A DNA stretch of 24,271 bases, taken from a virus. Where the stretch lies: the IMG/VR virus record IMGVR_UViG_3300031524_000083, positions 1 through 24,271 of that record, one strand, 5' to 3'. The notes beneath the pieces were generated by a model. It was not told where the DNA came from and did no database searches. It worked only from the letters and a program-made list of their open reading frames with translations. This document shows, piece after piece, positions 4,350 through 24,082 of the stretch (within the stretch, counting starts at the first letter, position 1; each line of letters starts with the position of its first letter). The position numbers and the translations under genes are program-made.

Positions 4350-4410
4350 AGTTATGATTATATTTGATAGTTTAGAAAATTGCAAGGAATAATTTTGATT
4401 AATTATAATA

Positions 4411-8797: not shown

Positions 8798-9055
8798 TTA
8801 GTTCTCCAATAAGCAAAGCATTGCTTCTTCGTCTGATAACTTTTGGACATTTTTTGAAAATTTAGCTGCAATACGTTTACCATATAAATCATTTATTATA
8901 ATTTGATCTTCTGCGCTAGGTGCGCATTCCTTTGGATATTCGGGATCAAACTCTGCAACAATACCAAATTTATCAAATAATATAGAGATATCATCCCATG
9001 CTCTAAATTTAACATAGTCACCGATTTTTAGCTCATTACCATTGTGGTCAAACAT
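8798..9055 (-). CDS. Small IGDYVKF-family protein, 85 aa (unlinked paralogue of the 11148-12095 array)
   Basis: The protein opens with DHNGNELKIGDYVKF and ends with LSDEEAMLCLLEN, the signature shared with the tandem genes at 11396, 11631 and 11865 on the other strand. The last 39 nt (8798-8836) match 11591-11629 in inverted orientation with one difference, so the duplication is recent at DNA level. The start has a strong AAAGGAG site inside the end of the radical SAM gene, which it overlaps by 8 nt. The short Gly-Asp-Tyr-Val strand pattern suggests a compact beta barrel. The function is unknown. Confidence 0.7.
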   Translation of the reverse strand: MFDHNGNELKIGDYVKFRAWDDISILFDKFGIVAEFDPEYPKECAPSAEDQIIINDLYGKRIAAKFSKNVQKLSDEEAMLCLLEN

Positions 9056-9935: not shown

Positions 9936-10271
9936 CTATTTCGTTGAACTTGCCAGATTAAGTTCCGGTTTCAATGCCTTGATCAAGGCAACCTCTCTTG
10001 AATGAGCCTGTGCTTTGCCTCTAACGGTTTCCAGAATCTCCATGGTGACTGAATCGATACCAAACTTGCGAAGCGCGGTATATAGAGGCCATGATTTCGA
10101 TTCGTTTCTGGCACGTTCCAGATGCTTAGAAAACCGAAGATTTGCACTTTTCAGGACAGTTGATTGCGTTTTTGCCGTCAAACCGATATAAATCATATTC
10201 TCTACAACGATCTTGTAAAGTATATGAGTCCGGTCAGAACGCTTCTTCCGCTTTGTTTTTCTCTCATCCAT
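9936..10271 (-). CDS. GIY-YIG nuclease-domain protein, 111 aa
   Basis: After a very basic N-terminus (KTKRKKRSD) the sequence reads ILYKIVVENMIYIGLT, a divergent GIY-YIG pair in which the first half is LYKI. An Arg-containing helix (RFSKHLERAR) follows, and the C-terminus has the expected conserved Glu in a helix before a Pro-Asn ending (EVALIKALKPELN). The length is close to a bare GIY-YIG domain, with no DNA-recognition extension, so it could be a stand-alone endonuclease or a homing-type fragment. The ATG lies exactly at the predicted start point of the promoter at 10278, with no Shine-Dalgarno, suggesting a leaderless message. Confidence 0.75.
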   Translation of the reverse strand: MDERKTKRKKRSDRTHILYKIVVENMIYIGLTAKTQSTVLKSANLRFSKHLERARNESKSWPLYTALRKFGIDSVTMEILETVRGKAQAHSREVALIKALKPELNLASSTK

Positions 10272-10277
10272 ATATAG

Positions 10278-10306
10278 ATCATACCAAAATTCTATTTGAA
10301 TGTCAA
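10278..10306 (-). promoter_or_regulatory. Sigma70-type promoter giving a predicted leaderless transcript
   Basis: On the minus strand: TTGACA (10306-10301), a 17-nt spacer ending in TTTGG, then TATGAT (10283-10278). Counting the -10 box as -12 to -7 puts +1 at 10271, the A of the GIY-YIG start codon. Confidence 0.85.
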
Positions 10307-10403
10307 GGTTTATTTTATCCCGGTATACTGAGACCTGTCAAATAGGCTTATACGTCAAAATATGTAAAAAATGGTGTTTTTTGTCCTTTAGAATCAATAG
10401 CTT

Positions 10404-10433
10404 ATAGTAGTGGCGATAGGGTTAAACTACTAT
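10404..10433. other. Short inverted repeat upstream of the plus-strand promoter
   Basis: An 8-bp arm ATAGTAGT (10404-10411) pairs with ACTACTAT (10426-10433) across a 14-nt spacer, ending 4 nt before the -35 box at 10438. It could be an operator or incidental; there is no second copy beside the minus-strand promoter. Confidence 0.35.
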
Positions 10434-10437
10434 ATGC

Positions 10438-10466
10438 TTGACATTCAAATAGAATTTTAGTATGAT
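10438..10466 (+). promoter_or_regulatory. Sigma70-type promoter giving a predicted leaderless transcript
   Basis: TTGACA at 10438-10443, a 17-nt spacer ending in TTTAG, then TATGAT at 10461-10466. The predicted +1 is 10473, the A of the downstream ATG. It is almost identical to the divergent promoter at 10278. Confidence 0.85.
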
Positions 10467-10472
10467 CTTTAT

Positions 10473-11120
10473 ATGGGACAAATCAAACAATCCGCTAAGA
10501 AAATTTATGGCCGGGAACCCAAAACGTTGGATCAGGTTGGCAAAGCCGTCATTAAAATTATTGATACTCATAAAAGCAGCTATGGGGGCCATAAAAGGGA
10601 AGTCGTAGCCACAAAATGTGTTGGTTTGTCGTGGTCTATTACTCATTCTGATAGTGTTAGCAACTCTCACTCTGCTCCCGAAGGATATTTAACAAATTTT
10701 GGTGGTTATGGAACAAAAGATGGTGTTCCGCGTGGATATCCGGGATGGACTGGTCGTGTTTGGGTTCGATATGAAAATGATTCAACTACTTTTGGAAGTG
10801 ATCCCTTTAGTCAAACATTAACCCATACCGGAACAGGCAGTTGGGGTAGTTATGATGGACCGTGGCGCGAAGTTGCACACCAATGGTATGAACGATTTGG
10901 AAAATATAATCACAAAAGCGCCACTTATCCAGAACCACAAATTTATAGTTGGGATTTTAAGATTTTTGATGCTGATTGGCCAAAAATCGAGGATTATACA
11001 CATCAGGCAATGCTGAATATGCTTGAAGATAAACCACTTAATTCAATTTCTCATGTTTTTTTGTGGGAAGACCCAAAAACCAAGGCAGCAGATAAGAAAT
11101 TTCTTTTACAAAAATACTAA
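10473..11120 (+). CDS. Hypothetical early protein, 215 aa
   Basis: The ATG coincides with the predicted transcription start and no Shine-Dalgarno exists. The N-terminus is a basic helix (IKQSAKKIYGREPKTLDQVG). The middle is rich in Gly, Ser, Thr and aromatic residues (YPGWTGRVWVRYENDSTTF), suggesting a beta domain, and the C-terminus is helical with ISHVFLWEDPKT. It has no signal peptide, membrane segment or recognisable catalytic motif. It heads the plus-strand run that continues into the small paralogue array. The function is unknown. Confidence 0.65.
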   Translation: MGQIKQSAKKIYGREPKTLDQVGKAVIKIIDTHKSSYGGHKREVVATKCVGLSWSITHSDSVSNSHSAPEGYLTNFGGYGTKDGVPRGYPGWTGRVWVRYENDSTTFGSDPFSQTLTHTGTGSWGSYDGPWREVAHQWYERFGKYNHKSATYPEPQIYSWDFKIFDADWPKIEDYTHQAMLNMLEDKPLNSISHVFLWEDPKTKAADKKFLLQKY

Positions 11121-11147
11121 AATTTTGTAATTGATTAGGTGAATAAT

Positions 11148-11396
11148 ATGCTTGATAAAAACGGAAAAATATTGGAGGTTGGTGATGTAGTTCGTTGTAT
11201 GCCCCCATATTATAAAACGTTTAGATATACAAGTGTCATTATTGAAGCGGCGCAAAATTATGTAACGATTAACAGTAGTGGCATCAGTTCTACCGAACGA
11301 TGGAATTGTGGGGATTATGATTATGTAATCGACGATTCGATGAAAATATATAAAATTTCAGATAAAAGAGCATTTCTTTGGAAATTGGAACATTGA
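11148..11396 (+). CDS. Small IGDYV-family protein, copy 1 of the tandem array, 82 aa
   Basis: The ATG at 11148 is preceded by TTAGGTGAATA; an in-frame GTG at 11139 lies within that site and is not preferred. The N-terminus LDKNGKILEVGDVVRC and C-terminus ISDKRAFLWKLEH match the family with more divergence than the other copies. It may be cotranscribed with the upstream gene at 10473. The stop TGA overlaps the next start (TGATG). The function is unknown. Confidence 0.65.
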   Translation: MLDKNGKILEVGDVVRCMPPYYKTFRYTSVIIEAAQNYVTINSSGISSTERWNCGDYDYVIDDSMKIYKISDKRAFLWKLEH

Positions 11397-11629
11397 TGGT
11401 GGATAAAAACGGAATTGAATTAAAAATCGGAGATTACGTAAAATACACTGCTTGGTGGAATCCAAGCGATACTACTATTTACTTTGGACAAATTATTAAT
11501 TTGTTGGAATTAGATAACATTGTCAGCATCAAAGTAAGACTTTCGCATGATAATATCAATAGCAACTATTCATTTGCAGTTTATAAAGTATCAGACGAAG
11601 AAGCAATGCTTTGCTTATTGGAGAATTAA
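11396..11629 (+). CDS. Small IGDYV-family protein, copy 2 of the tandem array, 77 aa
   Basis: The ATG at 11396 overlaps the stop of copy 1. The sequence begins MVDKNGIELKIGDYVKY and ends KVSDEEAMLCLLEN. Its last 39 nt are nearly identical to the inverted copy at 8798-8836. The GGAG inside its Leu-Glu-Asn codons is the ribosome site for copy 3. The shared ends with a variable middle suggest a common small fold with differing surface. Confidence 0.7.
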   Translation: MVDKNGIELKIGDYVKYTAWWNPSDTTIYFGQIINLLELDNIVSIKVRLSHDNINSNYSFAVYKVSDEEAMLCLLEN

Positions 11630-11630
11630 A

Positions 11631-11864
11631 ATGATTCATACCGATAGTAAATGGAACAAGATTTTTAAAGTCGGGCAAATTGTGCGTGTTATAGATAGAG
11701 ATTTTACTGGCTATACTCGTAATATGTTTTTAGCACAAATAATATTAGTTGGTTCAGGATCAGTATATAAAATCAAATATTTAAATACAACATCTTCTCG
11801 ATTTGCGTGGCAAATGTCAGCAGTTAGTGATGAAGAAGCAATGTTATATATTCTGGAGAATTAA
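11631..11864 (+). CDS. Small IGDYV-family protein, copy 3 of the tandem array, 77 aa
   Basis: A longer frame opens at 11547, but the ATG at 11631 has TTGGAG at a good spacing and removes overlap with copy 2. This is the most divergent N-terminus (KIFKVGQIVRVI), but the C-terminus VSDEEAMLYILEN is canonical. Its terminal Leu-Glu-Asn codons again carry GGAG for copy 4. The function is unknown. Confidence 0.7.
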   Translation: MIHTDSKWNKIFKVGQIVRVIDRDFTGYTRNMFLAQIILVGSGSVYKIKYLNTTSSRFAWQMSAVSDEEAMLYILEN

Positions 11865-12095
11865 ATGAAAGATGTCAATGGAGTTAAACTAAAAATCGGC
11901 GATTATGTAAAATATCGACTTGATGAGATGTGCAGTTTTGACATTTTAAGCTCAGTAGTAGGAAGTGAAGTTGCTGGTTTTACAACTTATATTCATGTGA
12001 CATATAAAAATCAACGTGGATATATTCCAAAATATGAGCACAATGTTCGGAAAATTTCAGATGAAGAAGCTATGTTGTGGATGTTTGAGCAATGA
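11865..12095 (+). CDS. Small IGDYV-family protein, copy 4 of the tandem array, 76 aa
   Basis: The protein starts directly after the stop of copy 3 with CTGGAG at 7 nt spacing. The N-terminus MKDVNGVKLKIGDYVKY and C-terminus ISDEEAMLWMFEQ fit the family. Its stop overlaps the next start in ATGA, so the array runs into the repeat protein at 12092 by translational coupling. Confidence 0.7.
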   Translation: MKDVNGVKLKIGDYVKYRLDEMCSFDILSSVVGSEVAGFTTYIHVTYKNQRGYIPKYEHNVRKISDEEAMLWMFEQ

Positions 12096-12550
12096 AAAAT
12101 AAAATCAAAATGCCGAAAAATATCAATGATATTGGTAGTAAAATAAATAAATTAATAGCATCTCATAATATCAATGATCTATGCGAAGACTTACAAATTA
12201 TTGCTATAATACAAGATTATATGGTTTTTAATGATATTAAGGAACCATCAGAAAAAGTAAAAATAGCAGCTTTATCATTAAATGGTCATTATATTCTAAG
12301 GATGAAATTTCCATCACAAGAACTTTGGAAAACTGCCATAACAGAAACACCCACTACTATACGATATAATAAAAATCCAGATAAGGAATTACAATTATTG
12401 GCTGTTTCTTTAAATCCTTATGTTATAACATACATTGGTGATCCAGATGAAGATGTGCAACTAGTTGCATTAAGAGGAGACAGCACCATAATTAAATATA
12501 TTAAATATCCAACCGAAAATGCAATAATATTGGCTAAATTTTGCAATTGA
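12092..12550 (+). CDS. Helical-repeat (HEAT/DUF4116-like) protein, 152 aa
   Basis: Repeats of about 23 residues can be seen from residue 45 on, with a pattern such as DKELQLLAVSLNPYVITYIG then DPDEDVQLVALRG: an acidic Pro-containing turn, a Val/Leu-Gln-Leu-Ala helix, and a second short helix. This matches short alpha-solenoid repeats seen in phage and bacterial proteins whose members I cannot assign to a function. The start overlaps the previous stop by four bases. Such solenoids usually bind proteins. The last repeat is truncated. Confidence 0.6.
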   Translation: MKNKIKMPKNINDIGSKINKLIASHNINDLCEDLQIIAIIQDYMVFNDIKEPSEKVKIAALSLNGHYILRMKFPSQELWKTAITETPTTIRYNKNPDKELQLLAVSLNPYVITYIGDPDEDVQLVALRGDSTIIKYIKYPTENAIILAKFCN

Positions 12551-12575
12551 CAAATTTATTAAACAAAGATATTAT
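12547..12575 (+). promoter_or_regulatory. Sigma70-type promoter giving a predicted leaderless transcript for the exonuclease
   Basis: TTGACA at 12547-12552, which overlaps the TGA of the upstream gene, a 17-nt spacer, then TATTAT at 12570-12575. The predicted +1 is 12582, the A of the exonuclease ATG. Confidence 0.75.
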
Positions 12576-12581
12576 ATAAAC

Positions 12582-13133
12582 ATGAGTAAAATATATACTG
12601 ACATCATGATTGATATTGAAACTTTGGGAACTACACCAAATGCTCAAGTTTTAAGTATTGCAGCCGTGGCATTTAATCCATTTGAAATAACAACAGATTT
12701 TTCTGAAAATCCAACTCTTGATTTGTTGTTAACTCTCGAAGATCAACAAAATAGACATGTTGATGATGGAACGCTTGTATGGTGGTCTAAACAAAGTCAC
12801 GAAGTGCAAGATCGAATATTTGGAGAATCAGATCGAGTTTCTATAGTTGAATCTCTTGAACAATTGTCAAAGTTTTGTTGGCTAAAAAATAGAATTTGGG
12901 CACAAGGTATTACCATGGATATTTGTATTTTGACCGATCTTTATGGTGAACATAAAAAGAGTGTTCCATGGAACTATGGTGCTGTTAGAGATAGTAGAAC
13001 TCTATTAGATTTATATTCCGTGAATCAACCATTGGTGACGCATGACAGTCTCGCCGATGTTCTGCGCCAAATTAGCGGAACACAACAAGCCATCAAAGGT
13101 TTAGGAATTACTAAGTTTGTTCGAGAACACTAA
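12582..13133 (+). CDS. dexA: DexA-like 3'-5' exonuclease, 183 aa
   Basis: This is a DEDD-superfamily nuclease. The first motif is MIDIETLG with Asp11 and Glu13. A WWSKQS motif follows in the same place as WWKNQS in T4 DexA; ITMDICILTDLYG is the second motif, with an acidic metal ligand; and THDSLADV is the third, with the His and Asp of the DEDDh type. The order and spacing agree with T4 DexA, though this protein is shorter (183 versus about 227 aa). It acts on single-stranded nucleic acid ends; a role in DNA metabolism or RNA turnover during infection is inferred. No Shine-Dalgarno precedes the ATG, which coincides with the predicted transcript start. Its end overlaps the convergent protease gene by 4 nt. 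Confidence 0.85.
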   Translation: MSKIYTDIMIDIETLGTTPNAQVLSIAAVAFNPFEITTDFSENPTLDLLLTLEDQQNRHVDDGTLVWWSKQSHEVQDRIFGESDRVSIVESLEQLSKFCWLKNRIWAQGITMDICILTDLYGEHKKSVPWNYGAVRDSRTLLDLYSVNQPLVTHDSLADVLRQISGTQQAIKGLGITKFVREH

Positions 13134-13771
13134 TTTTTATTTTCATATAACTTATCTATATCTTTTTTCTTGAAATCTAATATATAAGAAAAAGCCAATT
13201 TAAAAGAAGATGTATTATCGTCTGGTGCAGGTTCAACAACCATTCCAGTTAATATTCCAATTAATTGTCCAGATTCGTTAAATATACCAGCCCCACTATC
13301 TCCATACCAAATATTAAAATCATATAATATTTGTTTTGGTTCATTATCACTTTGAGCTATGGTTCCAACAGTTGTTCCTTTTCTAAATATATCATGTAAT
13401 TTTCCGGGATTTCCAAAATAAAATATAGATTTTCCTTGAGTTGGTTCTTCATCTTTGATTGTAGTATAATTTTTAAAAGTTGTGTCTACAATGTAAATGG
13501 TATGATCATTATCATCTCTTATTCTACTAGTAATTGCTACTACCGCATTAATTCCTTCAAGATATAAAGCATCAGTTGGAAGTTCACAGTGACTTGCGGT
13601 AATTAATGAGTGAGGAGCAATCGCAGTTGCAGAACAATGTTTTGAATCCATAACTGTTTCTTGATGAGTTCGATATGTGGTATCATGAGCAATTTTTATT
13701 ACGGCGGGTGTTTGTGCTATAACTAAAATAGGAAAAATAAAAACAATAAAAGAAAGAATCATATTGCGCAT
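13130..13771 (-). CDS. Exported trypsin-like serine protease, 213 aa
   Basis: Residues 1-20 form a signal peptide (MILSFIVFIFPILVIAQ). The catalytic set of a chymotrypsin-fold protease is visible: His61 in ITASHC, probably Asp96 in TIYIVD, and Ser159 in YGDSGAGIF. Cys46 and Cys62 bracket the His as in the usual disulfide. Strong AGGAGAAAT precedes the ATG. The protein should reach the periplasm or outside. It lies downstream of the two neck genes on the same strand and may be transcribed with them late. Possible roles are processing of envelope proteins or competitor exclusion; a capsid-maturation role is unlikely given the signal peptide. Confidence 0.82.
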   Translation of the reverse strand: MRNMILSFIVFIFPILVIAQTPAVIKIAHDTTYRTHQETVMDSKHCSATAIAPHSLITASHCELPTDALYLEGINAVVAITSRIRDDNDHTIYIVDTTFKNYTTIKDEEPTQGKSIFYFGNPGKLHDIFRKGTTVGTIAQSDNEPKQILYDFNIWYGDSGAGIFNESGQLIGILTGMVVEPAPDDNTSSFKLAFSYILDFKKKDIDKLYENKN

Positions 13772-13828
13772 GGTAATTTCTCCTGTGACAAAAATATTAC
13801 ATAATTCTTTGCCGAATTTATTTAAAAT

Positions 13829-14977
13829 TTATGAATTACTATTTCCACCTTTATCTATTCTTAGTAAATTTGACAAATTTTGTATTACTGGTTCAACATT
13901 TCCGCTTGAATTTGTAAAGACATTAGAATTATTTATAAATTGATCCCTTTGTGTTTGTCCAGTTCCGGGAGTTAATGGAGTTCTCTGTTTGGTGTTTACA
14001 TAGGTCCAAGCAGTTCCCGAAAATCTATAAAGTCTAGCTGGAAAATAATCTTGTCTTAAAACATATTGACCGGTAGTTGGAGTTGATGGAAATTCTGTAG
14101 CAGTAGTTACTGGATACCCATCAACAGCTTCGCCACTATTTACAAGATAGCCGGTAAATTTTTGTTGTGGACTTGCATTTGCAGGTAATGGACCTTGCTT
14201 CGGGTCACCATTAACAAATAATGGTGCAAATAATGCATCAGTATTATATCCTGACATTGGAGTCTCATATTCAGCTTGAGTTACAATAGCTTGATTCATA
14301 GTTGTGTAAAGATTTCCAGAACTTGAAATATTACTATAAGTGGTAGTATTACCATTTATTAAAACTGGGCTACCATCTAATCCAATTACTATTTGATTTA
14401 ATATTTGAGAATATTCTTGAGTATCAACTAATGGTTGCATTCTTAATCTCCATAAATGATTCCACCAAGTAGGAGAAAAGCCAGAAGCCGGTCGTGTTCC
14501 CTCTTGAACAACATAATATCTTTTGAGCGCAATAGGAACTGTTTCGTCCAAACTATAAAATTCTTTTAAATTTGGAAGCTCAATTACATCACCTGCCATT
14601 AATTTTCTACCAAAAGTTTCAATCATATTATTTAAATGAACTGTCATATAAAGAGTTCCTTGACTAATCAGTAAACCCCATTGAGATAGGTCTAAATCTA
14701 AATCTTGTGGATTATAATGACATCTTAATCTATAAATGTCAGGGGCATATTTTCTATCTCTGTTTTCTTGTAATAAAAGGTCTTGAATATTTTGAGCACT
14801 TAGATTTGGATAAATTGGTTGAGTTGCATCATTGATAATATTTGGATTTTCGGAACCAAGATATTTATGGACATATGCTGATACTCCACCCATTGTAAAT
14901 TGCTCTAGAATATGAGCATCAAAAAATTTAAAATCTTGTCCGAGTTTTTCTTCGTGCCATAATGAAATGCGGGGCAT
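13829..14977 (-). CDS. Neck protein, gp14-like, 382 aa
   Basis: The N-terminal 190 residues resemble the T4 gp14 neck family: HILEQFTMGGVSAYVHKYLG, then DRKYAPDIYRLRCHYNPQDL, and GDVIELPNLKEFYSLDETVP in the place of the membrane-like GDLIYFP strand of T4 gp14. The C-terminal half is longer than in T4 (gp14 is about 256 aa) and includes a short module (TGQYVLRQDYFPARLYRFSG followed by AWTYV) that resembles the repeats inserted in the sheath at 16649. TAGGAGAG precedes the ATG. It lies 36 nt after the gp13-like gene, matching the gp13-gp14 order that closes the filled head and joins it to the tail. Assignment is by motif and synteny. Confidence 0.7.
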   Translation of the reverse strand: MPRISLWHEEKLGQDFKFFDAHILEQFTMGGVSAYVHKYLGSENPNIINDATQPIYPNLSAQNIQDLLLQENRDRKYAPDIYRLRCHYNPQDLDLDLSQWGLLISQGTLYMTVHLNNMIETFGRKLMAGDVIELPNLKEFYSLDETVPIALKRYYVVQEGTRPASGFSPTWWNHLWRLRMQPLVDTQEYSQILNQIVIGLDGSPVLINGNTTTYSNISSSGNLYTTMNQAIVTQAEYETPMSGYNTDALFAPLFVNGDPKQGPLPANASPQQKFTGYLVNSGEAVDGYPVTTATEFPSTPTTGQYVLRQDYFPARLYRFSGTAWTYVNTKQRTPLTPGTGQTQRDQFINNSNVFTNSSGNVEPVIQNLSNLLRIDKGGNSNS

Positions 14978-15013
14978 TTAATACTCTCCTAATTTATAAA
15001 ACAAAATTCTAAT

Positions 15014-15784
15014 TTAACCGATGAGAAGTCCCAAAGGGCGCTCACCGAATCTATAATTCTGAATATCCATATGTAATTCTGTCATGATAGCAGTAGCTTC
15101 GGCTTTCAATGAAGCACCGTTTAAAGTTGTGCCTCCACCGGGACCAACAATTGTAGAATATTTCTCGCGGGCTTGTCCCAATTCACTTAAACAAAGAGCA
15201 TATGTATATTCTTTTAAAAATGTTAATGTGCGATAGTCAGTTAATAGTTGCACCAATGGGCGCAAGTTATAAGTTTGAAGTAACATTGTTTCATCTTCAC
15301 AAAGAGGACGACGAATAAGCGACAATTTTTTAGTTACAGAATTGAAATTGAAATCAATTTCTCCACCAAACATACGTGATGCTTGAAATTGGAAATCTGA
15401 ATACAATTCAAAACTCAACAGACCACCACTACGTCCAGCATTTAGAATATATGTATTTAAATAACCTTGAGAAAATGGATCGAAATTACTTCCACCAGTT
15501 CCTAAGTCTCCAATACTTCTTCTCCAAATTTTTTGAACATATTGAATTTCTTCTGGTAATGTATATATCTGAACGTCTTTTTGTGGTTTTAAAAATACAA
15601 AACTTTCTTCAACGGCAGCTTGGCTACGAGTTCTAAAAACTTCCACAGCACGAACAATAGCATTTTCATAATGTTCAGGATCAAGTTCAACCTCTACCAT
15701 TTGATCACCTAAACGAAAACGAACATAATCAAAAACATTGTTTTTAAGTTTAGCTAAATCTACAACATTTCTTTCTTCGGCCAT
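15014..15784 (-). CDS. Neck protein, gp13-like, 256 aa
   Basis: The N-terminus contains the pattern seen in T4 gp13 relatives: VRFRLGDQMVEVELDPEHYE followed by AIVRAVEVFRTRS, then a strand with YTLPEEIQYVQKIWRR. The C-terminal third is helical with a Gly-rich loop (GPGGGTTLNG). The length is somewhat less than T4 gp13 (about 309 aa). GAGGTAA precedes the ATG, and a late-type motif GATAAATA lies about 20 nt further upstream. It is the first gene of the minus-strand late unit gp13-gp14-protease. The product is inferred to sit at the portal-neck junction. Confidence 0.72.
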   Translation of the reverse strand: MAEERNVVDLAKLKNNVFDYVRFRLGDQMVEVELDPEHYENAIVRAVEVFRTRSQAAVEESFVFLKPQKDVQIYTLPEEIQYVQKIWRRSIGDLGTGGSNFDPFSQGYLNTYILNAGRSGGLLSFELYSDFQFQASRMFGGEIDFNFNSVTKKLSLIRRPLCEDETMLLQTYNLRPLVQLLTDYRTLTFLKEYTYALCLSELGQAREKYSTIVGPGGGTTLNGASLKAEATAIMTELHMDIQNYRFGERPLGLLIG

Positions 15785-15803
15785 GATTCTGTTACCTCTT
15801 TAT

Positions 15804-15811
15804 TATTTATC
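15804..15811 (-). promoter_or_regulatory. T4-type late promoter motif for the neck-protein operon
   Basis: The minus strand reads GATAAATA. The predicted start point near 15798 would leave a very short leader that begins with the GAGGTAA ribosome site. Confidence 0.55.
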
Positions 15812-15820
15812 ATTTTAGGG

Positions 15821-15849
15821 TTGCATAACGATAAAAACTTAGTTATAAT
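15821..15849 (+). promoter_or_regulatory. Sigma70-type promoter for the dNMP kinase gene
   Basis: TTGCAT at 15821-15826, a 17-nt spacer, then TATAAT at 15844-15849. The predicted start is near 15856, a leader of about 30 nt. It is back to back with the late motif of the neck operon at 15804. Confidence 0.7.
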
Positions 15850-15885
15850 AAAAACAAGATCGATATTAAAGGAATAATTACATAT

Positions 15886-16536
15886 ATGATTATAGGAATT
15901 ATGGGAAATATTGGCTCAGGCAAGGGAAAAGTTTCTGAATATATTCAGGAAAAATATAATTTTCAAAAACTTAGTTTTGCTAATTCATTAAAATCAGCGG
16001 TTTCTTCTGTTTTTGATTGGCCACTAGAATTATTACAAGGTTCCACACCAGAAAGCAGAGAATGGAGAGAAACTGTTGATCAGTGGTGGAGCGAAAGATT
16101 ACATATTAAAGGATTAACGCCCCGATGGATTTTACAACAATGGGGAACAGAAGTTTGTAGATATGGCTTTCATCCAGATATTTGGGTTGCTTCTTTAGAA
16201 CACAGAATTATGAAATTAAATAATAACATTGTTATTGATGATTGCCGTTTCATTAATGAAATGGAATCTATAAGAAAATATAATGGAATTTTAATTAAAG
16301 TTACTCGCGGTGAATTACCTGAATGGTATAATACTGCATTAGATGAAGTAAGATATTTAAAAACTTATGGATATGAAACTGGTTTTGAAAGTATGATGGC
16401 AATAAAATACCCAGATGTTCATATAAGTGAATGGGGATGGATAGACGAAAAATTTGATTATGATATTGAAAATAATGGAACAGTTGAAGAATTGAATAAT
16501 AAAATTGACAATATTATTAAAAATATAACTATTTAA
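15886..16536 (+). CDS. Deoxynucleoside monophosphate kinase, gp1-like, 216 aa
   Basis: A P-loop stands at the N-terminus (GNIGSGKGK, Lys13). It is followed by LSFANSLKSAVSSVFDWPLE, the nucleotide-binding helix typical of phage dNMP kinases, and by a conserved segment TPRWILQQWGTEVCR and DIWVASLEH. VIDDCRFINEMESI is the Walker B-like strand and dNMP-site region. These are the landmarks of the T4 gp1 family, which phosphorylates dNMPs for phage DNA synthesis. The residue after the P-loop lysine is Gly rather than Ser/Thr; other phage dNMP kinases also deviate here (for example GKD), so activity is still likely. The ribosome site is a weak AAGGAA at long spacing. It has its own sigma70-type promoter among late genes. 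Confidence 0.85.
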   Translation: MIIGIMGNIGSGKGKVSEYIQEKYNFQKLSFANSLKSAVSSVFDWPLELLQGSTPESREWRETVDQWWSERLHIKGLTPRWILQQWGTEVCRYGFHPDIWVASLEHRIMKLNNNIVIDDCRFINEMESIRKYNGILIKVTRGELPEWYNTALDEVRYLKTYGYETGFESMMAIKYPDVHISEWGWIDEKFDYDIENNGTVEELNNKIDNIIKNITI

Positions 16537-16607
16537 AAATATATTTTTATTTTCCTATAAAATTCAAAATTCTCTTTTGTTAAAGTGGCTTCTTTCTATA
16601 TAGATTG

Positions 16608-16614
16608 CTAAATA
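16608..16614 (+). promoter_or_regulatory. T4-type late promoter motif for the tail sheath gene
   Basis: CTAAATA, the variant I recall from T4-like cyanophage late promoters. The start near 16620 gives a leader of about 29 nt with AATAGGAGA, shared with the tube gene leader. Confidence 0.6.
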
Positions 16615-16648
16615 TCAATAGACAAGTTTGTAATAGGAGAACTAACAA

Positions 16649-19600
16649 ATGGCAAATCTAATTTCACCCGGCGTAGATATTTCGGTAGTGGATCAAACAC
16701 AGTTTACTTCTGCACCACAGGGAACCGTTCCATTTATTTTGATTGCTACTGCCCAGAATAAAGTTAATCAAAGTAATACTCTTGCACAATATACCACTGC
16801 AAATACAGCAGGGCAAATTTATCTTGAAACTAGTCAAAGAAGTCTTGTTCAAGACTTCGGCGCACCAATTTTTGAAAATGTTCAAGGAACACCAGTAAAT
16901 GGTTCCGAACAAAACGAATATGGTCTAATGACTGCATTTTCAACATTGGGTGTTTCGTCTGCCGCTTATATTATGAGAGCGCCTATTGATCTTGCTGCAT
17001 TAAGTGGTTCTCTAACTGCTCCGGTTGGAACTCCACCAAATGATACATTATGGCTTGATACTACAGCCACAGATTGGGGTTTATTTGAATTTGACGCTGC
17101 AACCTTAACTTTCTTTCCAATTGTTTCAACAAACCAAACTGGTGATGGAAAATTATGGGTTCTTGATAGTTCAGTTCAAACTAATGGAAATATTGGTTCA
17201 TTAACTGCTTATCTCGGAGCTAATTGTCAGCCATCTTCTTCAATTGGAAAACCCGGAGATTATGCAGTTGTTCCAGCCAATGCAAGTAATCCAGTATGGT
17301 TCCAAAATAGTTCTGGAACTTGGGTTTTGGTTGGTTCACAAGCATGGCAAGATAGTGTTCCTACAGTTATCGGAGCTAATACTTACCCAATAGTAACTGG
17401 AAATATTATTTTAAATGGTTCCAATGTAAATTTCACCGCAAATTCATTATCTTCAATCGTAAGTGGAATTAATGCTGCAAATATTACCGGCGTAAACGCT
17501 GTTATTGTTTCAAATCGTCTTGCTTTAACAGTTGATTATCTTGCAAATAGTGGCAATGGTAACGTTGTGGTAACTGGTGATGTTTCAGTGTTGGGTAATG
17601 TTGGAATTTCAGCAGCTACCTATTATGCACCAGCTTATCAAGCAAGTCCATTTACAAATGTCCCACAATGGAATCCAACTGATGCAACACCTGAACCAAC
17701 TGGAAGCATTTGGTTTAATACAACTCCTCAACAAGAGGGTGCAAACATTGTCATAAGAGAATTTAATTCTGCAAGTAATGTTTGGACAGTTGAACCAGTT
17801 GTTATCTCTGAAAATGATGCAACAGTTAATACTCTTCTTGATCCAATTGGTGGAGGAATTAACATTCCTGCTGGAACACTTTATTTTGAATATGGTGCTT
17901 TTGGTGCCAACGCAGCTTCTATCCTATGGGAGCGCGTAGCCGGAGCAACTATTATTACTGGAACTGCTGTAAGTGCAAATGTTACAGCTAGCTCAACTTT
18001 TGTTATTAATACTGCTACTGTTGGAAGTAATACATTTACTGCCAACGTAACAATTACAATTCCATCAGTTCTTCCAACAGATTTTGTAGCTGCTGTAAAC
18101 AGTGCATCTATTCCGGGAATTACTGCTGGTTTAAATAGATTTAATCAGATTTACATTGAAAATACCACTGGTGAAACTTTCTATTTGTATGAAGGAACAT
18201 ATTCACCATTAACAACTGTTGGTATTCTTACATCACCAGCATTATCTGCAAAGGTTAGTAATTGGGTAACTCCAACTTATGTAGTTAGTGCAATTACACC
18301 AACCGCTGATCCAGCAAATGATACTATCTGGTATTATGATGACCCAACTGTTGCTGATATATTAGTTAATACTGGCAATGCATGGATGAGCTATAGAACA
18401 GTTACAGCAGATGCTCGTGGTTATAACCTTTCCTTAACTGACGTAAATGGTCCAATTGCAAGTGCAAGTATGCCGCTAACTCAAAGCAACGGTAATGTTT
18501 TAGCATATGGGGATATTTGGCTTAATACAGCAGATTTGAACAGTTTGCCAAGTATTTACCGTTATAGCACTGGTAATACTTGGGTTCAAATTAATAATGC
18601 AGATCATACAAGTTCAAATGGTATTGTTTTTGCAGATGCTCGTTGGTCTGCTGGTTTTAATGATATTTTAGAAGAACAAGCATTGGAAACAGTAATCTCA
18701 GCAGAAAACAATTATAATATTATAACTGAAAATTCAACCTATGCATTGCTTGATCCGGGATTAGGAATTCTTGAACCAATTAGCTTAATGTTGGTAGCAA
18801 GCCCTGCAAACTTAGACCCCGATGCACCAAGTTATGCATTGTATCCTCGTGGAACTTTACTATTCAATACTCGTCGTAGTGGTATGAATGTTAAACAATT
18901 CATGGCAAACTATTTTACAGTAAGTAGCAATGTTCCTTATTCAGATACTTGGGTTACTTTAAGTGGAAATAATGAATTGGGTGTTGCATATCAAGGAAGC
19001 GCAGCACAACGTAACGTTGTTGTGAAATCTTTGATTTCTGCTCTTGAAAATAGTTATCAAATTCAAGATGAATTCTATAATTTTAATTTGATGTCTTGCC
19101 CCGGTTATCCAGAAGTATTACCAGCCTTGGTAACTATTGATGAAGCTCGTGGTGAAACAGCATTTATTGTTTCAGATAGCCCACTAACATTACAAGCAAA
19201 TGCAAACGCATTGAATACTTGGGCAAATAATCTAAATCAATCAACAACAGATGATGTTAATGGATTGGTTACATTCTATGATTATGCAGCAACTTATTAT
19301 CCATCTGGTCTTACAACTGATCTAACTGGTAATAATATTGTTGTTCCAAGTAGCTTCATGGCACTTCCAACAATTATTCAAAGCGATGCAGTTTCTTATC
19401 CATGGTTTGCACCGGCTGGAGCACGTAGAGGATTAGTAACAAACGTAAGTTCTATCGGCTATGTTGATGAACAAACTGGTAATTTTATTACAAACAGTAT
19501 TTCTAAAGCATTGCGTGATGTTCTATATCCTGCATATGTAAATCCAATTAGTAATTTTCAAGCTGGTGGAATTCAGATTTATGGACAGAAGACTCGCAGC

Positions 19601-19951
19601 GGCCAAGACACTGAATTAAGCAGAATTAATGTTGCGCGTCTTGTTATCTATCTTCGTGGAGCATTAAATCAGATTGGTGGACAGTATGTATTCGAGCAAA
19701 ATGATAGCATAACTCGACAGGGAATTGCTTATCAAATCGGTGAATTCTTGAAGAGTATTCAAGCACTAAGAGGAATCACTGATTATGCAGTTGTTTGCGA
19801 TCTTTCCAATAATTCTCCCGCAACAATTGACGCAAATGAATTATTTGTAGATGTAGCTGTTGCTCCAACAACTGTGGCTGAATATATCTATATTCCTATT
19901 ACTTTGGTTGGTCAAGGGGTTATTACAACAAGCAGTGTAACCGCTGGTTAA
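16649..19951 (+). CDS. Contractile tail sheath protein, gp18-like, 1100 aa
   Basis: The N-terminus (MANLISPGVDISVVDQTQF) is the classical start of T4-type sheath proteins. Residues 690-1100 hold the conserved core, ending in a C-terminal domain with RLVIYLRGALNQIGGQYVFE and a final strand pair IYIPITLVGQG that links neighbours in the sheath. At 1100 aa it is much larger than T4 gp18 (659 aa). The excess is at about 120-650 and contains at least four copies of a short beta module (for example TGSIWFNTTP, NDTIWYYDD, GDIWLNTADL, each followed by a Trp-Val strand) and two segments resembling flagellin-hook IN domains (ITGVNAVIVSNRLAL; IPGITAGLNRFNQIYI). The inserts are probably on the outer tail surface. 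A CTAAATA late motif and TAGGAGA precede the ATG. Confidence 0.93.
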   Translation: MANLISPGVDISVVDQTQFTSAPQGTVPFILIATAQNKVNQSNTLAQYTTANTAGQIYLETSQRSLVQDFGAPIFENVQGTPVNGSEQNEYGLMTAFSTLGVSSAAYIMRAPIDLAALSGSLTAPVGTPPNDTLWLDTTATDWGLFEFDAATLTFFPIVSTNQTGDGKLWVLDSSVQTNGNIGSLTAYLGANCQPSSSIGKPGDYAVVPANASNPVWFQNSSGTWVLVGSQAWQDSVPTVIGANTYPIVTGNIILNGSNVNFTANSLSSIVSGINAANITGVNAVIVSNRLALTVDYLANSGNGNVVVTGDVSVLGNVGISAATYYAPAYQASPFTNVPQWNPTDATPEPTGSIWFNTTPQQEGANIVIREFNSASNVWTVEPVVISENDATVNTLLDPIGGGINIPAGTLYFEYGAFGANAASILWERVAGATIITGTAVSANVTASSTFVINTATVGSNTFTANVTITIPSVLPTDFVAAVNSASIPGITAGLNRFNQIYIENTTGETFYLYEGTYSPLTTVGILTSPALSAKVSNWVTPTYVVSAITPTADPANDTIWYYDDPTVADILVNTGNAWMSYRTVTADARGYNLSLTDVNGPIASASMPLTQSNGNVLAYGDIWLNTADLNSLPSIYRYSTGNTWVQINNADHTSSNGIVFADARWSAGFNDILEEQALETVISAENNYNIITENSTYALLDPGLGILEPISLMLVASPANLDPDAPSYALYPRGTLLFNTRRSGMNVKQFMANYFTVSSNVPYSDTWVTLSGNNELGVAYQGSAAQRNVVVKSLISALENSYQIQDEFYNFNLMSCPGYPEVLPALVTIDEARGETAFIVSDSPLTLQANANALNTWANNLNQSTTDDVNGLVTFYDYAATYYPSGLTTDLTGNNIVVPSSFMALPTIIQSDAVSYPWFAPAGARRGLVTNVSSIGYVDEQTGNFITNSISKALRDVLYPAYVNPISNFQAGGIQIYGQKTRSGQDTELSRINVARLVIYLRGALNQIGGQYVFEQNDSITRQGIAYQIGEFLKSIQALRGITDYAVVCDLSNNSPATIDANELFVDVAVAPTTVAEYIYIPITLVGQGVITTSSVTAG

Positions 19952-19967
19952 AATAGTTGTATTTAAT

Positions 19968-20005
19968 ATTAGGGTATGCTATACTATTGGCATACCCTAA
20001 TTTAT
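19968..20005 (+). terminator. Terminator hairpin after the sheath gene
   Basis: A 12-bp perfect stem (19968-19979 with 19990-20001; arm ATTAGGGTATGC) closes a 10-nt loop, followed by a short T-rich tract. It ends or attenuates sheath transcription before the endonuclease gene. Confidence 0.75.
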
Positions 20006-20017
20006 TGGACAAATCAA

Positions 20018-21181
20018 ATGAAAACTCGTATTTATAATACTCAACAGTTTATTGAACAATCAAAAAAGAATTATAATGAAGGAAGATATTCATATGATAA
20101 AACTGTTTATAAAAATGCAAAAACAAAAGTTATTATTACCTGTTTGCTTTGCAATAGAGATTTTGAACAATTGCCCAATAATCATATATCTGGTCATAAT
20201 GGTTGTATATTATGTTCTATAGGAGGTAATAAAAAAGACACTAGTATTTTTATAATGAAAAATAAAGATAAAAATATATATTCATATGACAAAACTGTTT
20301 ATAAAAATGCAAAAACAAAAGTTATTATTACCTGTTTGCTTTGCAATGAGGATTTTTTACAAACACCAGATTCTCATTCACGAGGTCATGGGTGTCCATT
20401 ATGTTATCGCAAAACATGTAATAAACAACGAATCAAGACTACTGAACAATTTATAGAAGATGCATCTTTGATACCAATTCATTTTGGCAAATATTCATAT
20501 GAAAAAACAAAATATCAATATGCAAGAAAAAATGTTCTTATAACTTGCTTAGTATGTAATAGAGATTTCTTACAAACACCAGATAATCATTTATCAGGAA
20601 AAGGATGTTATTTTTGTAAAAATAAATTGATTTCTGAGAAATTACTAAGTTCCACTAATGAGTTTGTTCAAAAAGCAAAAAAATTACCACTTAATGATAA
20701 TTATTCATATGATAAGGTAAAATATATTAATAGTAAAATTCCGGTTATCATAACATGTTTATCTTGTAATAAAGATTTCTTACAGGTTCCTACTAATCAT
20801 CTTCAAGGTTCTGGTTGCCCAGTTTGTAATAGTTCAAGAGGTGAGAAGGCAATTGAAAATTTTCTTATTTTGAACAAAATAGAATATAAAAGACAAGTAA
20901 GAATTACTGGGTGTCATCGAAAGAAAACACTTCCTTTTGATTTTGGAATTTATAATAATTATGGTAAATTATTGAGATTAATAGAATATCAAGGAATTCA
21001 ACATTACAAATCTTTTACTCATTTTGGTGGTATAGAAAAATTAAATAAAACATTAGATTCTGATAAAATTAAAAGTGATTATTGTTTGGAAAACAAAATA
21101 CCATTGTTAATTATTCCTTATACTGATTTTAATAATGTAGAAAGCATATTACAATTTTGGACTAATAAAGGTTACTTTTGA
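20018..21181 (+). CDS. Homing endonuclease: zinc repeats plus Vsr-like (EDxHD) nuclease domain, 387 aa
   Basis: The protein has four repeats of about 65 residues, each with a YSYDK-type segment, then ITCLLCNRDF, a xxNHxxG turn and GCxxC, so each repeat can bind zinc through two Cys pairs (CxxC ... CxxC). The C-terminus (about 285-387) is a Vsr-like nuclease: LPFDFGIYNN gives the Asp, LIEYQGIQHY the Glu, Gln and His, and KSDYCLENKIPLLIIPYTDF closes the fold. This matches the I-Bth0305I-type endonucleases. The ATG at 20018 is used; a longer frame from 19976 runs through the sheath terminator and is not supported. A GGA at 9 nt is the only ribosome site. The first two repeats are nearly identical at DNA level (69 nt). 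It is inserted between sheath and tube genes. Confidence 0.8.
   Translation: MKTRIYNTQQFIEQSKKNYNEGRYSYDKTVYKNAKTKVIITCLLCNRDFEQLPNNHISGHNGCILCSIGGNKKDTSIFIMKNKDKNIYSYDKTVYKNAKTKVIITCLLCNEDFLQTPDSHSRGHGCPLCYRKTCNKQRIKTTEQFIEDASLIPIHFGKYSYEKTKYQYARKNVLITCLVCNRDFLQTPDNHLSGKGCYFCKNKLISEKLLSSTNEFVQKAKKLPLNDNYSYDKVKYINSKIPVIITCLSCNKDFLQVPTNHLQGSGCPVCNSSRGEKAIENFLILNKIEYKRQVRITGCHRKKTLPFDFGIYNNYGKLLRLIEYQGIQHYKSFTHFGGIEKLNKTLDSDKIKSDYCLENKIPLLIIPYTDFNNVESILQFWTNKGYF
20087..20347 (+). repeat. Internal 69-nt direct repeat within the homing endonuclease gene
   Basis: Positions 20087-20155 and 20279-20347 are identical except for one base (GATAAA versus GACAAA), offset by 192 nt (64 codons). They encode the YSYDKTVYKNAKTKVIITC segment of zinc repeats 1 and 2. 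The near identity points to a recent in-frame duplication or gene conversion. Confidence 0.9.
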
Positions 21182-21197
21182 AAATTTTTCAATAAAG

Positions 21198-21205
21198 TAT
21201 AAATA
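21198..21205 (+). promoter_or_regulatory. T4-type late promoter, perfect TATAAATA, for the tail tube gene
   Basis: TATAAATA exactly matches the T4 late consensus. The start near 21211 gives a 24-nt leader with AATAGGAGA, as in the sheath leader. Confidence 0.8.
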
Positions 21206-21234
21206 CTATCAGTGTAGTAATAGGAGATATAATT

Positions 21235-21846
21235 ATGGCTTCCGCAAGTTTGCTTAATTTCACAGTTCCGCTTTCAAATATCGGGGATTCCGCATCGGGT
21301 CAGGGCTTAATAATGCCAAAATTGAAATATAGATTTCGTTTGACTTTTGTTGGCTTTGGTGTTTCGGTTGATACAACCGAATTGACAAAACAAGTTATAG
21401 ATTTTAAACGTCCAAGTCTAAAATTTGATGAACAAGTAATTGATGTTTATAACTCCAAGGTTCACTATCCCGGAAAGCCATCATGGGATGCGACTACTGT
21501 TACTCTTCGTGATGATATGCAAGGTAATATTCAGACGCTTGTTGGACAACAGATGCAAAAACAATTTGATTTCCTAAATCAAGCAAGTGCTAGTTCCGCA
21601 AGTGATTTTAAATTTTCTCTTGTTGCTGATACATTGGATGGTGGAAATGGTGCAGTTGAGCCAATTATTCTGGAATCTTGGAATCTTGTTGGATGTTATA
21701 TTAGTAACGCTGATTGGAGTGATAGTGACTATAAAACTTCTGATCCTCAAACTGTTAAACTATCTATTGTATTTGATAATGCATTACAAACTGCATTTGG
21801 AATCGGTTCACCTGTTGTTAGAACTAATGGTGTTCTAGCAATTTAA
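21235..21846 (+). CDS. Tail tube protein, gp19-like, 203 aa
   Basis: Motifs of the T4-type tube family are visible: a strand YRFRLTFVGF, then IDFKRPSLKFDEQVIDVYNS in the place of the P-x-hydrophobic segment followed by the N-x-Y-x turn, and VTLRDDM for the strand that precedes the long helix. The C-terminus has LVGCYISNADWSD and PQTVKLSIVFDNAL, typical of the last strands of the tube fold. The length (T4 gp19 is 163 aa) and the position just after the sheath, separated only by a homing endonuclease, agree. It would form the hexameric rings inside the sheath. A perfect late promoter and TAGGAGA precede it, and a terminator follows. Confidence 0.9.
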   Translation: MASASLLNFTVPLSNIGDSASGQGLIMPKLKYRFRLTFVGFGVSVDTTELTKQVIDFKRPSLKFDEQVIDVYNSKVHYPGKPSWDATTVTLRDDMQGNIQTLVGQQMQKQFDFLNQASASSASDFKFSLVADTLDGGNGAVEPIILESWNLVGCYISNADWSDSDYKTSDPQTVKLSIVFDNALQTAFGIGSPVVRTNGVLAI

Positions 21847-21869
21847 TTAAAAATCTCCTCCTGTTGCAC

Positions 21870-21903
21870 TAAAGCTCACCAAATTACTGGTGAGCTTTTA
21901 TTT
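21870..21903 (+). terminator. Rho-independent terminator after the tail tube gene
   Basis: A stem of 11 bp (TAAAGCTCACC with GGTGAGCTTTA, 21870-21880 and 21889-21899) closes an 8-nt loop; Ts follow at 21897-21904 with one interrupting A. Confidence 0.85.
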
Positions 21904-21907
21904 TAAG

Positions 21908-21915
21908 CATAAATA
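21908..21915 (+). promoter_or_regulatory. T4-type late promoter motif before the second homing endonuclease
   Basis: CATAAATA lies immediately after the tube terminator. The start near 21921 leaves a leader of about 52 nt, ending in AAGGAG before the ATG at 21973. Confidence 0.6.
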
Positions 21916-21972
21916 ATGTCAGTCACGGACTACCAATCCTACTGACTCTAATGCTATTAAGGAGCACCAGCT

Positions 21973-22934
21973 ATGCGTATTTATTATACAACTGAAATCT
22001 TTATTGAAAAAGCAAAAACTCATCCAAATCATATAAACTGTTTATATACTAAAACTGTTTTTGTTTCTTGGAAAGAAAAAATCTGTATAACTTGTCCTAT
22101 TCATGGAGATTTTTGGCAACGTTCAAAGGATCATATAGCTGGGGCAGGGTGTCCAAAATGTGCCAACCAAAATACAGGGATTAGGTGTCGATTTGATCAA
22201 GAAGAATTAATTAAATTATTAAACAAGAAACATAATTATAAATATACCTATGAAAATGTCATATATAAAGGGGCGCATTACGATATTATTGTAACATGCC
22301 CAAAACATGGAAACTTTAGCGTTAAAGCATATTCACATATTGCTGGAATAGGTTGTATTAATTGTGGTTACGAGTCATCTGCTGTCATTCGCAGAAAAAC
22401 AACAGATCAGTTTATTTTGGATGATCCAAAATACATAGTAATTTTTTTAATTATAATAAATCTGAATATATTACATCAAAAACAAAATTATGTATAACTT
22501 GTCCTATTCACGGAGATTTTTGGCAAATACCAAACAAGCACTTATTTGGTAGAGGATGTCCGAAGTGCAAAGAATCATCAGGAGAAACTATTATTAGGTT
22601 AATACTTGAGAACACAAAATTGAAGTATAAAAGTGAATTTAAAATTCCAGAATGTAAAAATATATTTCCTCTTCCTTTTGATTTTGCAATAATAAATAAT
22701 AAAAAAATTTTAGGATTAATTGAATATCAAGGAATTCAACATTATAGACCAATACGAAGATCAAGAAAATGGTCAGATGAAAAACTTCAAATGGTATTCA
22801 ACCAGATATTAAAACATGACTTAATTAAAAAAATATATTGTCAAACAAATAATATTCCTTTTCTTGAGATATCATACGCTCAAAAAGATAATATTAAAAC
22901 ATTGTTAGAAGAGTTCATTGTCAATATAACATAA
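21973..22934 (+). pseudogene. Homing endonuclease split by a -1 frameshift (zinc repeats plus Vsr-like nuclease)
   Basis: The first frame (21973-22497) encodes zinc repeats with CPIHGDF, CPKC, CPKHGNF and CINC motifs, then turns into nonsense after DDPKY. From about 22449 the -1 frame reads NYNKSEYITSKTKLCITCPI, finishes a further zinc repeat and continues into the nuclease domain: LPFDFAIINNKK, then GLIEYQGIQHYRP. The stop is at 22932-22934. The two frames together give one protein of about 320 aa, a close relative of the 20018 gene. The shift occurs at 22442-22448 (seven Ts), where the zero frame reads T TTT TTA. It may be an indel in a homopolymer, making this a broken gene, or a true -1 programmed frameshift. 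AAGGAG precedes the ATG. Confidence 0.8.
22443..22449 (+). other. Candidate -1 ribosomal frameshift site, T TTT TTA
   Basis: The heptamer is in phase with the upstream frame (codons ATT-TTT-TTA) and has the X XXY YYZ form known as an efficient -1 slippery site. Sliding back one base enters the frame that encodes the rest of the endonuclease. No downstream stimulatory structure has been verified. Confidence 0.45.
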
Positions 22935-22937
22935 ATA
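22930..22937 (+). promoter_or_regulatory. T4-type late promoter motif giving a predicted leaderless transcript
   Basis: CATAAATA overlaps the end of the endonuclease. If the motif occupies -13 to -6 as in T4 late promoters, +1 is 22943, the A of the next ATG. No Shine-Dalgarno is present. Confidence 0.55.
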
Positions 22938-22942
22938 TCTAT

Positions 22943-24082
22943 ATGAGTATTCTTTCACAAGTATTATCTGGAACATCTAATCAACCAGCAACTACCTTGC
23001 GTGATTATCAACATGCATCTAAAATTTTCCGACCTAACAATAGCAGTTTCTTACCCAAAAGTAAAAATTGGTTTCATATATTTTTTGAATTGGACCCAGT
23101 AGTAATTAGTGCCGTGAATGCCGCATTAGGAGAGGCAACTTCTAATTTTAGAATTAATTGGAATCCTACTAATGTTCCAATTTTAGGAATTTTAGCAAAA
23201 ACTGCAAAATTACCAACTTTTAAATTTGATGTTAAAAAGAATAATCAATATAATCGATGGAGTCTAACAACAACCAAAATAACATATGATCCAATTGAAA
23301 TAAGTTTCTGGGATGATACTGTTGATACTATACGAGGATTTTGGTATGCATATTATCAATATATGATTCAAGACCCACGATACGTAAATTTTCAAGCATC
23401 ACAAAATCAAGGAATAGCAGTTCCGTATCAATGGGCACCAAGCACAGCAAATGTTGAAATGTTATATAGCACTTCTTCTAATTGGGGAGTAAATTATGGT
23501 ATGGATACCGTTGATACTCTTGGTTCTGCGATGAATAAAACTAATCCATTTTTTAGAAGTATACGAATATATCAATTTAATCGTCAAACAAATTCTGATC
23601 CAACAATTGGACCACAATATACTGAGTATGTTTTAGTAAATCCAGTGATATCTTCCTTTGATCATGATACTGTTGATTTTTCAAGTTCTGAATATATGCA
23701 AAATAAAATGTCTATTGAATGTGAAACCGTTTTATATAACTCAGGATTAGTTAACAATGATGAAATTGCAAGTTGGGATGCAGTTCTTCAAACATTTTTT
23801 GATACTACTCCAAGTTTCATTGCACCAGTTAATACTAATTTAAATCAAGTTAGTCAATTAGGATCATCAGTTAATTCATCATTATTTAATGCTCCGTCTG
23901 TTTCCAACGGCGGAACAAACAGTGGAATTAATAGCGTAACTTCTATTTTAAATCAACCCAATGGCGATGCTACAACCGTTCAAAATTCTTCAATTGGGTT
24001 ATTAAACAATAAAATCGGTGTTCCTAATATTGTTCCGGGTTTTGGAAATAGTGGATTACCTCCTGATGTTTTAGGGGCATAA
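22943..24082 (+). CDS. Tube-fold tail protein (second gp19/tube-cap-like protein), 379 aa
   Basis: After an N-terminal extension (about 1-45) there is a tube-fold segment: WFHIFFELDP, then AKLPTFKFDVKKNNQYNRWS, then ITYDPIEISFWDD and a helix with FWYAYYQYMIQD. These correspond to the P-x-FxFxxxxxNxYNR and DxxxV/I-hydrophobic-WDD motifs of T4-type tube proteins. The protein is nearly twice the length of the tube at 21235 and ends in an Asn/Ser/Gly-rich low-complexity tail (about 290-379). It could be a tube initiator or cap of the baseplate (gp48/gp54 type) or a tail-terminator-side component. It follows the tube gene after a homing endonuclease. The ATG coincides with the predicted start of a late promoter and lacks a Shine-Dalgarno. 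Confidence 0.72.
   Translation: MSILSQVLSGTSNQPATTLRDYQHASKIFRPNNSSFLPKSKNWFHIFFELDPVVISAVNAALGEATSNFRINWNPTNVPILGILAKTAKLPTFKFDVKKNNQYNRWSLTTTKITYDPIEISFWDDTVDTIRGFWYAYYQYMIQDPRYVNFQASQNQGIAVPYQWAPSTANVEMLYSTSSNWGVNYGMDTVDTLGSAMNKTNPFFRSIRIYQFNRQTNSDPTIGPQYTEYVLVNPVISSFDHDTVDFSSSEYMQNKMSIECETVLYNSGLVNNDEIASWDAVLQTFFDTTPSFIAPVNTNLNQVSQLGSSVNSSLFNAPSVSNGGTNSGINSVTSILNQPNGDATTVQNSSIGLLNNKIGVPNIVPGFGNSGLPPDVLGA

Follow-up and report, generated by a model that had tools for sequence, protein, structure and literature searches.

Does transcription in some T4-like phages begin on the A of the start codon itself, so that the message would carry neither a leader nor a Shine-Dalgarno site? The question is raised by a 24,271-bp IMG/VR virus fragment from a T4-like contractile-tailed phage (hereafter the window), in which an earlier reading of the sequence alone had placed the predicted +1 of four genes on their ATG and had taken this for a genuine mode of translation control common to early and late genes. 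The window encodes a tail sheath, two tail-tube-like proteins, a head-tail adaptor, a dNMP kinase and a GIY-YIG-type homing-endonuclease-like gene. Two more contigs (G005 and G006) are of the same species, and the best long relative is a contig of 359,890 bp (G001) that is 68% identical in the tail-tube-like gene; three others (G002, G003 and G004) are ∼50% identical to the window in that gene. The nearest cultured phages are PA5oct-like (terminase 52%), followed by Phosso and Atu_ph07. The matches in genome collections were phage-like contigs binned with unrelated MAGs and pointed to no host.

Predicted leaderless starts in the window

The first of the four genes, a predicted leaderless early-type gene at 9936..10271 on the minus strand, encodes a GIY-YIG-like protein of 111 aa (phrog_19446, homing endonuclease family, E 9e-8) and is preceded at 10278..10306 (minus strand) by a sigma-70-type promoter, TTGACA-17-TATGAT, that ends 6 nt before the ATG. 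An inverted duplicate of this promoter, with the same hexamers, spacer and 6-nt distance to the ATG, lies on the plus strand at 10438..10466, upstream of a second predicted leaderless early-type gene (10473..11120, plus strand) whose 215-aa product has no family match and has homologs only within the same phage species. On the plus strand, too, a third sigma-70-type promoter (TTGACA-17-TATTAT, 12547..12575) stands 6 nt from the ATG of a predicted leaderless gene at 12582..13133 for an Rv2179c-like 3'-5' exonuclease of 183 aa (PF16473, E 8e-29; phrog_255). The fourth case is of another kind: a T4-late-type promoter, CATAAATA, at 22930..22937 (plus strand), kept in all of the relatives checked, lies 5 nt before the ATG of a predicted leaderless late gene at 22943..24082 (plus strand) for a tail-tube-like protein of 379 aa (phrog_13438, tail tube, E 1.5e-11). 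None of the four starts has a Shine-Dalgarno site, and in none is there an alternative start between the ATG and the upstream in-frame stop. By a loose rule, a Shine-Dalgarno match of at least 4 nt is present in 12 of the 16 other called genes of the window. The leadered arrangement is illustrated by a late promoter, TATAAATA, at 21198..21205 (plus strand), which sits ∼29 nt upstream of the ATG of the gene at 21235, where an AGGAG site is present.

The geometry and spacings of all four starts, and the predominance of Shine-Dalgarno sites elsewhere, thus agree with the sequence-only reading; its count of cases does not hold unchanged. The promoters of the genes starting at 10271 and 10473 are the arms of one 40-nt inverted repeat, 95% complementary, with both ATGs inside it, and since they are copies the four cases amount to three independent ones. 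The two genes form a divergent pair (10268-10476) in which the arms of the repeat are 129 nt apart. A probable further case had been missed, a nucleotide-sugar epimerase gene (phrog_540) at 3447..4349 on the minus strand with the promoter layout TTGCAA-17-TATAAT-7-ATG at 4357-4385; it is a weaker candidate, with two mismatches in the -35 box. The TTG that would start the longest ORF there (4385) itself belongs to the -35 box. Matches to the strict pattern TTGACA-N15..19-TATNAT-N5..7-ATG number three in the window versus none for the pattern read backwards.

Other features of the window are recorded here in their own right. The two tail-tube genes are separated by endonuclease-like ORFs, apparently split over two frames (21973-22934), and tandem small paralogous genes occupy 11139-12095 and 8798-9055 (minus strand), with pieces in common such as LKIGDYVK and SDEEAMLCLLEN.

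Conservation and spacing in related phages

Three of the four genes have orthologs in G001, and all three keep the geometry although the surrounding sequence has diverged (protein divergence 32-43%). The ortholog of the 10271 gene (at 66562 in G001, 68% identical) keeps the layout as TTGACGG...GGTATACTTATTAC-ATG, that of the 12582 gene (57% identical) has TTGACA-17-CATAAT-6-ATG, and that of the 22943 gene (68% identical) retains TAAATA-5-ATG. The 10473 gene has no ortholog outside its own phage species for comparison, and a search for further relatives of this gene and of the 10271 and 12582 genes returned, by that route, only the same species. The tail-tube gene can be followed further. Across the lineages compared (G001, L009, G002/L011, G003, G004 and L014, plus L074-L077 and L079), TAAATA-N5-ATG is found in all eight distinct relatives checked at the start; relatives that keep the upstream layout are 45-70% identical, and in several of these lineages a terminator hairpin and its T-run end directly before the TAAATA box.

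The genome-wide comparison of promoter-ATG coincidences with chance that had been proposed alongside the original observation was run on the relatives and bore it out. There are 256 TAAATA sites in G001, and an ATG opening a frame of at least 60 aa follows at exactly 5 nt in 26 of them versus ∼1.8 per position farther off (Poisson P ~2e-21), with 0-2 at each of the neighboring distances. A motif-free search of hexamers before the starts of G001 also ranked TAAATA, at -11, first for position-locking (23 versus 1.6 expected), ahead of the Shine-Dalgarno hexamer GGAGAA at -9 (19 versus 1.0); in the same search, Shine-Dalgarno hexamers alone took the top ranks in T4 and PA5oct, and S-PM2 gave nothing comparable. 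The 5-nt peak recurs in seven more long or mid-size contigs (G007, G008, G010, G011, G012, G015 and G016 contig 57), is weak in G014, and in some genomes (G007 and G011) is spread over 4-7 nt. With 13 contigs pooled, TAAATA-5-ATG is found 110 times versus 12.0 per position (P 2e-65), whereas neither GTG (5 versus 3.2) nor TTG (9 versus 4.8) is significantly enriched at this distance. Of these 110 cases, 100 have a pyrimidine at -1, compared with 49% at larger distances (P 5e-18). The gene calls behind these counts come from a simple purpose-written caller.

Cultured phages do not share the peak. T4, S-PM2 and PA5oct together have an ATG at 5 nt 7 times versus 5.0, and TAAATA-N5-ATG is not clearly commoner than its reversed counterpart in Phosso, PA5oct, Atu_ph07, SCTP-2, Vibrio 2.275, GAP32, 121Q, T4, S-PM2 or phiM12; T4 has 10 occurrences versus 5 reversed, yet no peak at gene starts. 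The late cases in G001 include genes for the tail-tube-like protein, the terminase large subunit (by homology), a tail sheath/sheath-stabilizer-type protein, a baseplate wedge subunit and a virion structural protein, together with many homing endonucleases. In 41 aligned late cases the TAAATA core spans -11 to -6, and farther upstream than about -13 the sequence is little conserved; the late box is relaxed at its first two positions, -12 being mostly A or C. A hairpin resembling an intrinsic terminator lies within 75 nt upstream of 18 of 97 late genes of the predicted leaderless class versus 50 of 2136 others (P 1e-10). Shine-Dalgarno-like matches of 4-5 nt are found in 4 of 35 late genes of this class and in 0 of 9 early ones. 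Many late motifs in the same genomes sit farther upstream, before genes with Shine-Dalgarno sites, and therefore the leaderless layout is not the sole mode.

A peak is seen for the other promoter type as well. With sigma-70-like promoters defined as TTGACA with at most one mismatch, a spacer of 16-18 nt and a TATAAT-like -10 element, the ATG lies at exactly 6 nt in nine cases in G001 versus ∼0.86 per position (P ~3e-7) and in three cases in the window, and reversed hexamers give no case at this distance. Among called genes there are five such cases each in G007, G008 and G016 contig 57, one in S-PM2 and none in T4 or PA5oct, and a pyrimidine occupies -1 in 22 of 27 early-class cases. We infer from their sigma-70 type that these promoters form an early class. 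In G001 (L028-L045), a repeated AAAGGACTTA precedes the -35 box of several sigma-70-type promoters, some of them of the predicted leaderless kind, by anything from a few to about 10 nt.

The arrangement is, then, wider than the four genes of the window. Conservation in the orthologs and the single-nucleotide peaks in related phages argue for a genuine arrangement common to early-type and late-type promoters, as had been claimed, and the absence of the late peak from T4, S-PM2 and PA5oct points the same way. Over a wider group of 88 terminase genes, TAARTA is found 4-8 nt before the ATG in 50 and at exactly 5 nt in 30. In one terminase subclade (loci L135, L138-L140, L143, L144, L146, L157, L174, L176, L185 and L206) TAAGTA replaces TAAATA with the 5-nt spacing unchanged, a pattern suggesting that the box can change while the spacing stays and that this subclade has a late sigma with altered specificity. 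A tree of 58 terminases, a subset of the loci with several open forks (the 88-gene set being the unselected count), places the trait scattered through an uncultured clade that groups with PA5oct, and not in T4 or S-PM2. As the tree forces at least eight changes of the trait, gains or losses at the terminase gene must have been frequent.

Proposed initiation at the start codon and alternative readings

We consider it likely, with a probability of roughly 0.87, that host sigma-70 and a gp55-type late sigma both start mRNA synthesis on the A of the AUG and so produce leaderless mRNAs. In early units, host RNA polymerase with sigma-70 would initiate there because the -10 element sits 6 bp upstream of the start codon, and in late units RNA polymerase with the phage gp55-type sigma would do so because the late TATA box sits 5 bp upstream. 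The late box of T4 is 8 bp long and spans -13 to -6 (PMC2988020); with a TAAATA core occupying -11 to -6, +1 therefore coincides with the first base of the ATG, and for sigma-70 the same follows from a -10 hexamer that stops 6 nt short of that base. The predicted mRNA would start 5'-AUG, lacking both leader and Shine-Dalgarno site, and would presumably be translated by direct binding of its 5'-terminal AUG, the 70S route of leaderless mRNAs. Both the 5' ends at the AUG and the 70S route are what we infer from the layout, and transcription may start 1-3 nt away from the A of the ATG. G001 encodes a gp55-like late sigma (283761-284702, minus strand; phrog_12791, E 8e-66); the window fragment does not span such a gene. 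T4 gp45, used as a single query sequence, gave no match in G001. Leaderless initiation requires AUG, and 5'-terminal AUGs are bound by 70S ribosomes in vitro, as PMC4965119 discusses with citations; the enrichment of ATG alone fits both properties. In our assessment the data very probably describe a clade-wide mode of expression, spread through a large, uncultured group of T4-like soil jumbo phages, one that serves a subset of genes beside those with Shine-Dalgarno sites.

For the biology, the simplest alternative is that these phages merely follow a host already rich in leaderless genes, in which case the messages would be leaderless and nothing about them would be phage-specific. We give this appreciable weight, short of an even chance. 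Some bacteria, such as mycobacteria, have many leaderless mRNAs (PMC4633059), and the early genes carry standard sigma-70-type boxes, as such an account would have it. The late class, however, depends on a promoter of phage type, whose position the phage itself determines; Shine-Dalgarno hexamers are strongly position-locked in these genomes too, so leadered genes are also common; and the breadth of the terminase clade, drawn from many different metagenomes, makes it probable that several hosts are involved.

A second alternative takes TAAATA-N5-ATG not for a promoter but for an AU-rich translation element within longer, leadered transcripts. A+T-rich sequence before start codons can aid ribosome binding in genes that lack a Shine-Dalgarno site, and, the 5' ends here being predicted, leader-bearing transcripts are conceivable. 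We nevertheless regard this explanation as improbable. A translation element would not be expected to keep a one-nucleotide fixed spacing equal to the start position of T4 late promoters, to be preceded immediately by terminators whose T-run it abuts in several lineages, to leave GTG and TTG starts without significant enrichment, or to share its ATG at +1 with a second, unrelated promoter type. The pyrimidine at -1 speaks against it as well: together with an A at +1, this is the usual initiation context of bacterial RNA polymerase. That the four window cases are chance overlaps of common AT-rich motifs with an ATG is very improbable, for although the window contains no more copies of ATAAATA alone than shuffled sequence does (19 versus 19.3 expected), chance is contradicted by the conservation in orthologs, the genome-wide peaks and the reversed-pattern controls, which gave 0.

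Initiation on the AUG, the reading that we prefer, does not by itself say when such messages would be translated. The sequence-only reading had raised a link to the state of the ribosome during infection, which is only a possibility. No phage homolog of IF3 was found in ten related records, and a bS21 gene is present in three of the ten (G007, G009 and G013), G001 not being among them; with bS21 in so few and absent from the closest relative, there is no simple ribosomal-protein link. A dual translation scheme, in which synthesis from the early and late leaderless set would track another state of the ribosome (such as undissociated 70S or IF3-poor initiation) than that of the Shine-Dalgarno genes within one infection, is a tentative idea that we hold to be rather doubtful.

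Relation to known systems and significance

The predicted messages resemble those of lambda cI and other natural leaderless mRNAs in their AUG 5' start, lack of a Shine-Dalgarno site and strong preference for AUG. The known phage examples, cI among them, concern one gene each, whereas here dozens of genes in one genome are involved, those for terminase, tail and baseplate proteins included, and they draw on two classes of promoter. T4-type late promoters (TATAAATA, served by gp55/gp33/gp45) share the TATA-box core and its distance from the predicted +1, and the gp55-like sigma of G001 extends the likeness; in T4, S-PM2 and PA5oct, however, the late box is not enriched 5 nt before the ATG, unlike in the uncultured clade. 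In the examples from PA5oct, Phosso and Atu_ph07, a leader carrying a Shine-Dalgarno site follows the late box, and PA5oct and its relatives (Arenbergviridae), although the closest cultured phages by terminase, have no genome-wide abutting late box. The annotated terminase start of PA5oct (NC_071039 128846; L058 18178) falls inside a terminator-like hairpin, and homology favors an ATG 27 nt downstream, at L058 18205. In AR9, a jumbo phage with mapped starts, leaders are 26-491 nt long (PMC5312081). Leaderless mRNAs and T4-type late promoters are thus each known; the open-licence literature searched contained no account of late genes with leaderless messages in T4-like phages, nor of the clade-wide combination.

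Leaderless mRNAs of phages are usually those of isolated genes, and here a whole uncultured group appears to use them, for terminase, tail-tube, baseplate and other late genes as well as for many small early genes, with a one-nucleotide precision kept over deep divergence. The arrangement offers a simple sequence signature by which leaderless genes may be recognized in metagenomes, with better annotation of start codons and promoters, and two naturally occurring classes of gene with which to ask under what conditions ribosomes prefer leaderless over leadered messages. A bypass of the usual ribosome-binding site on this scale would allow one route of making protein to be studied genome-wide.
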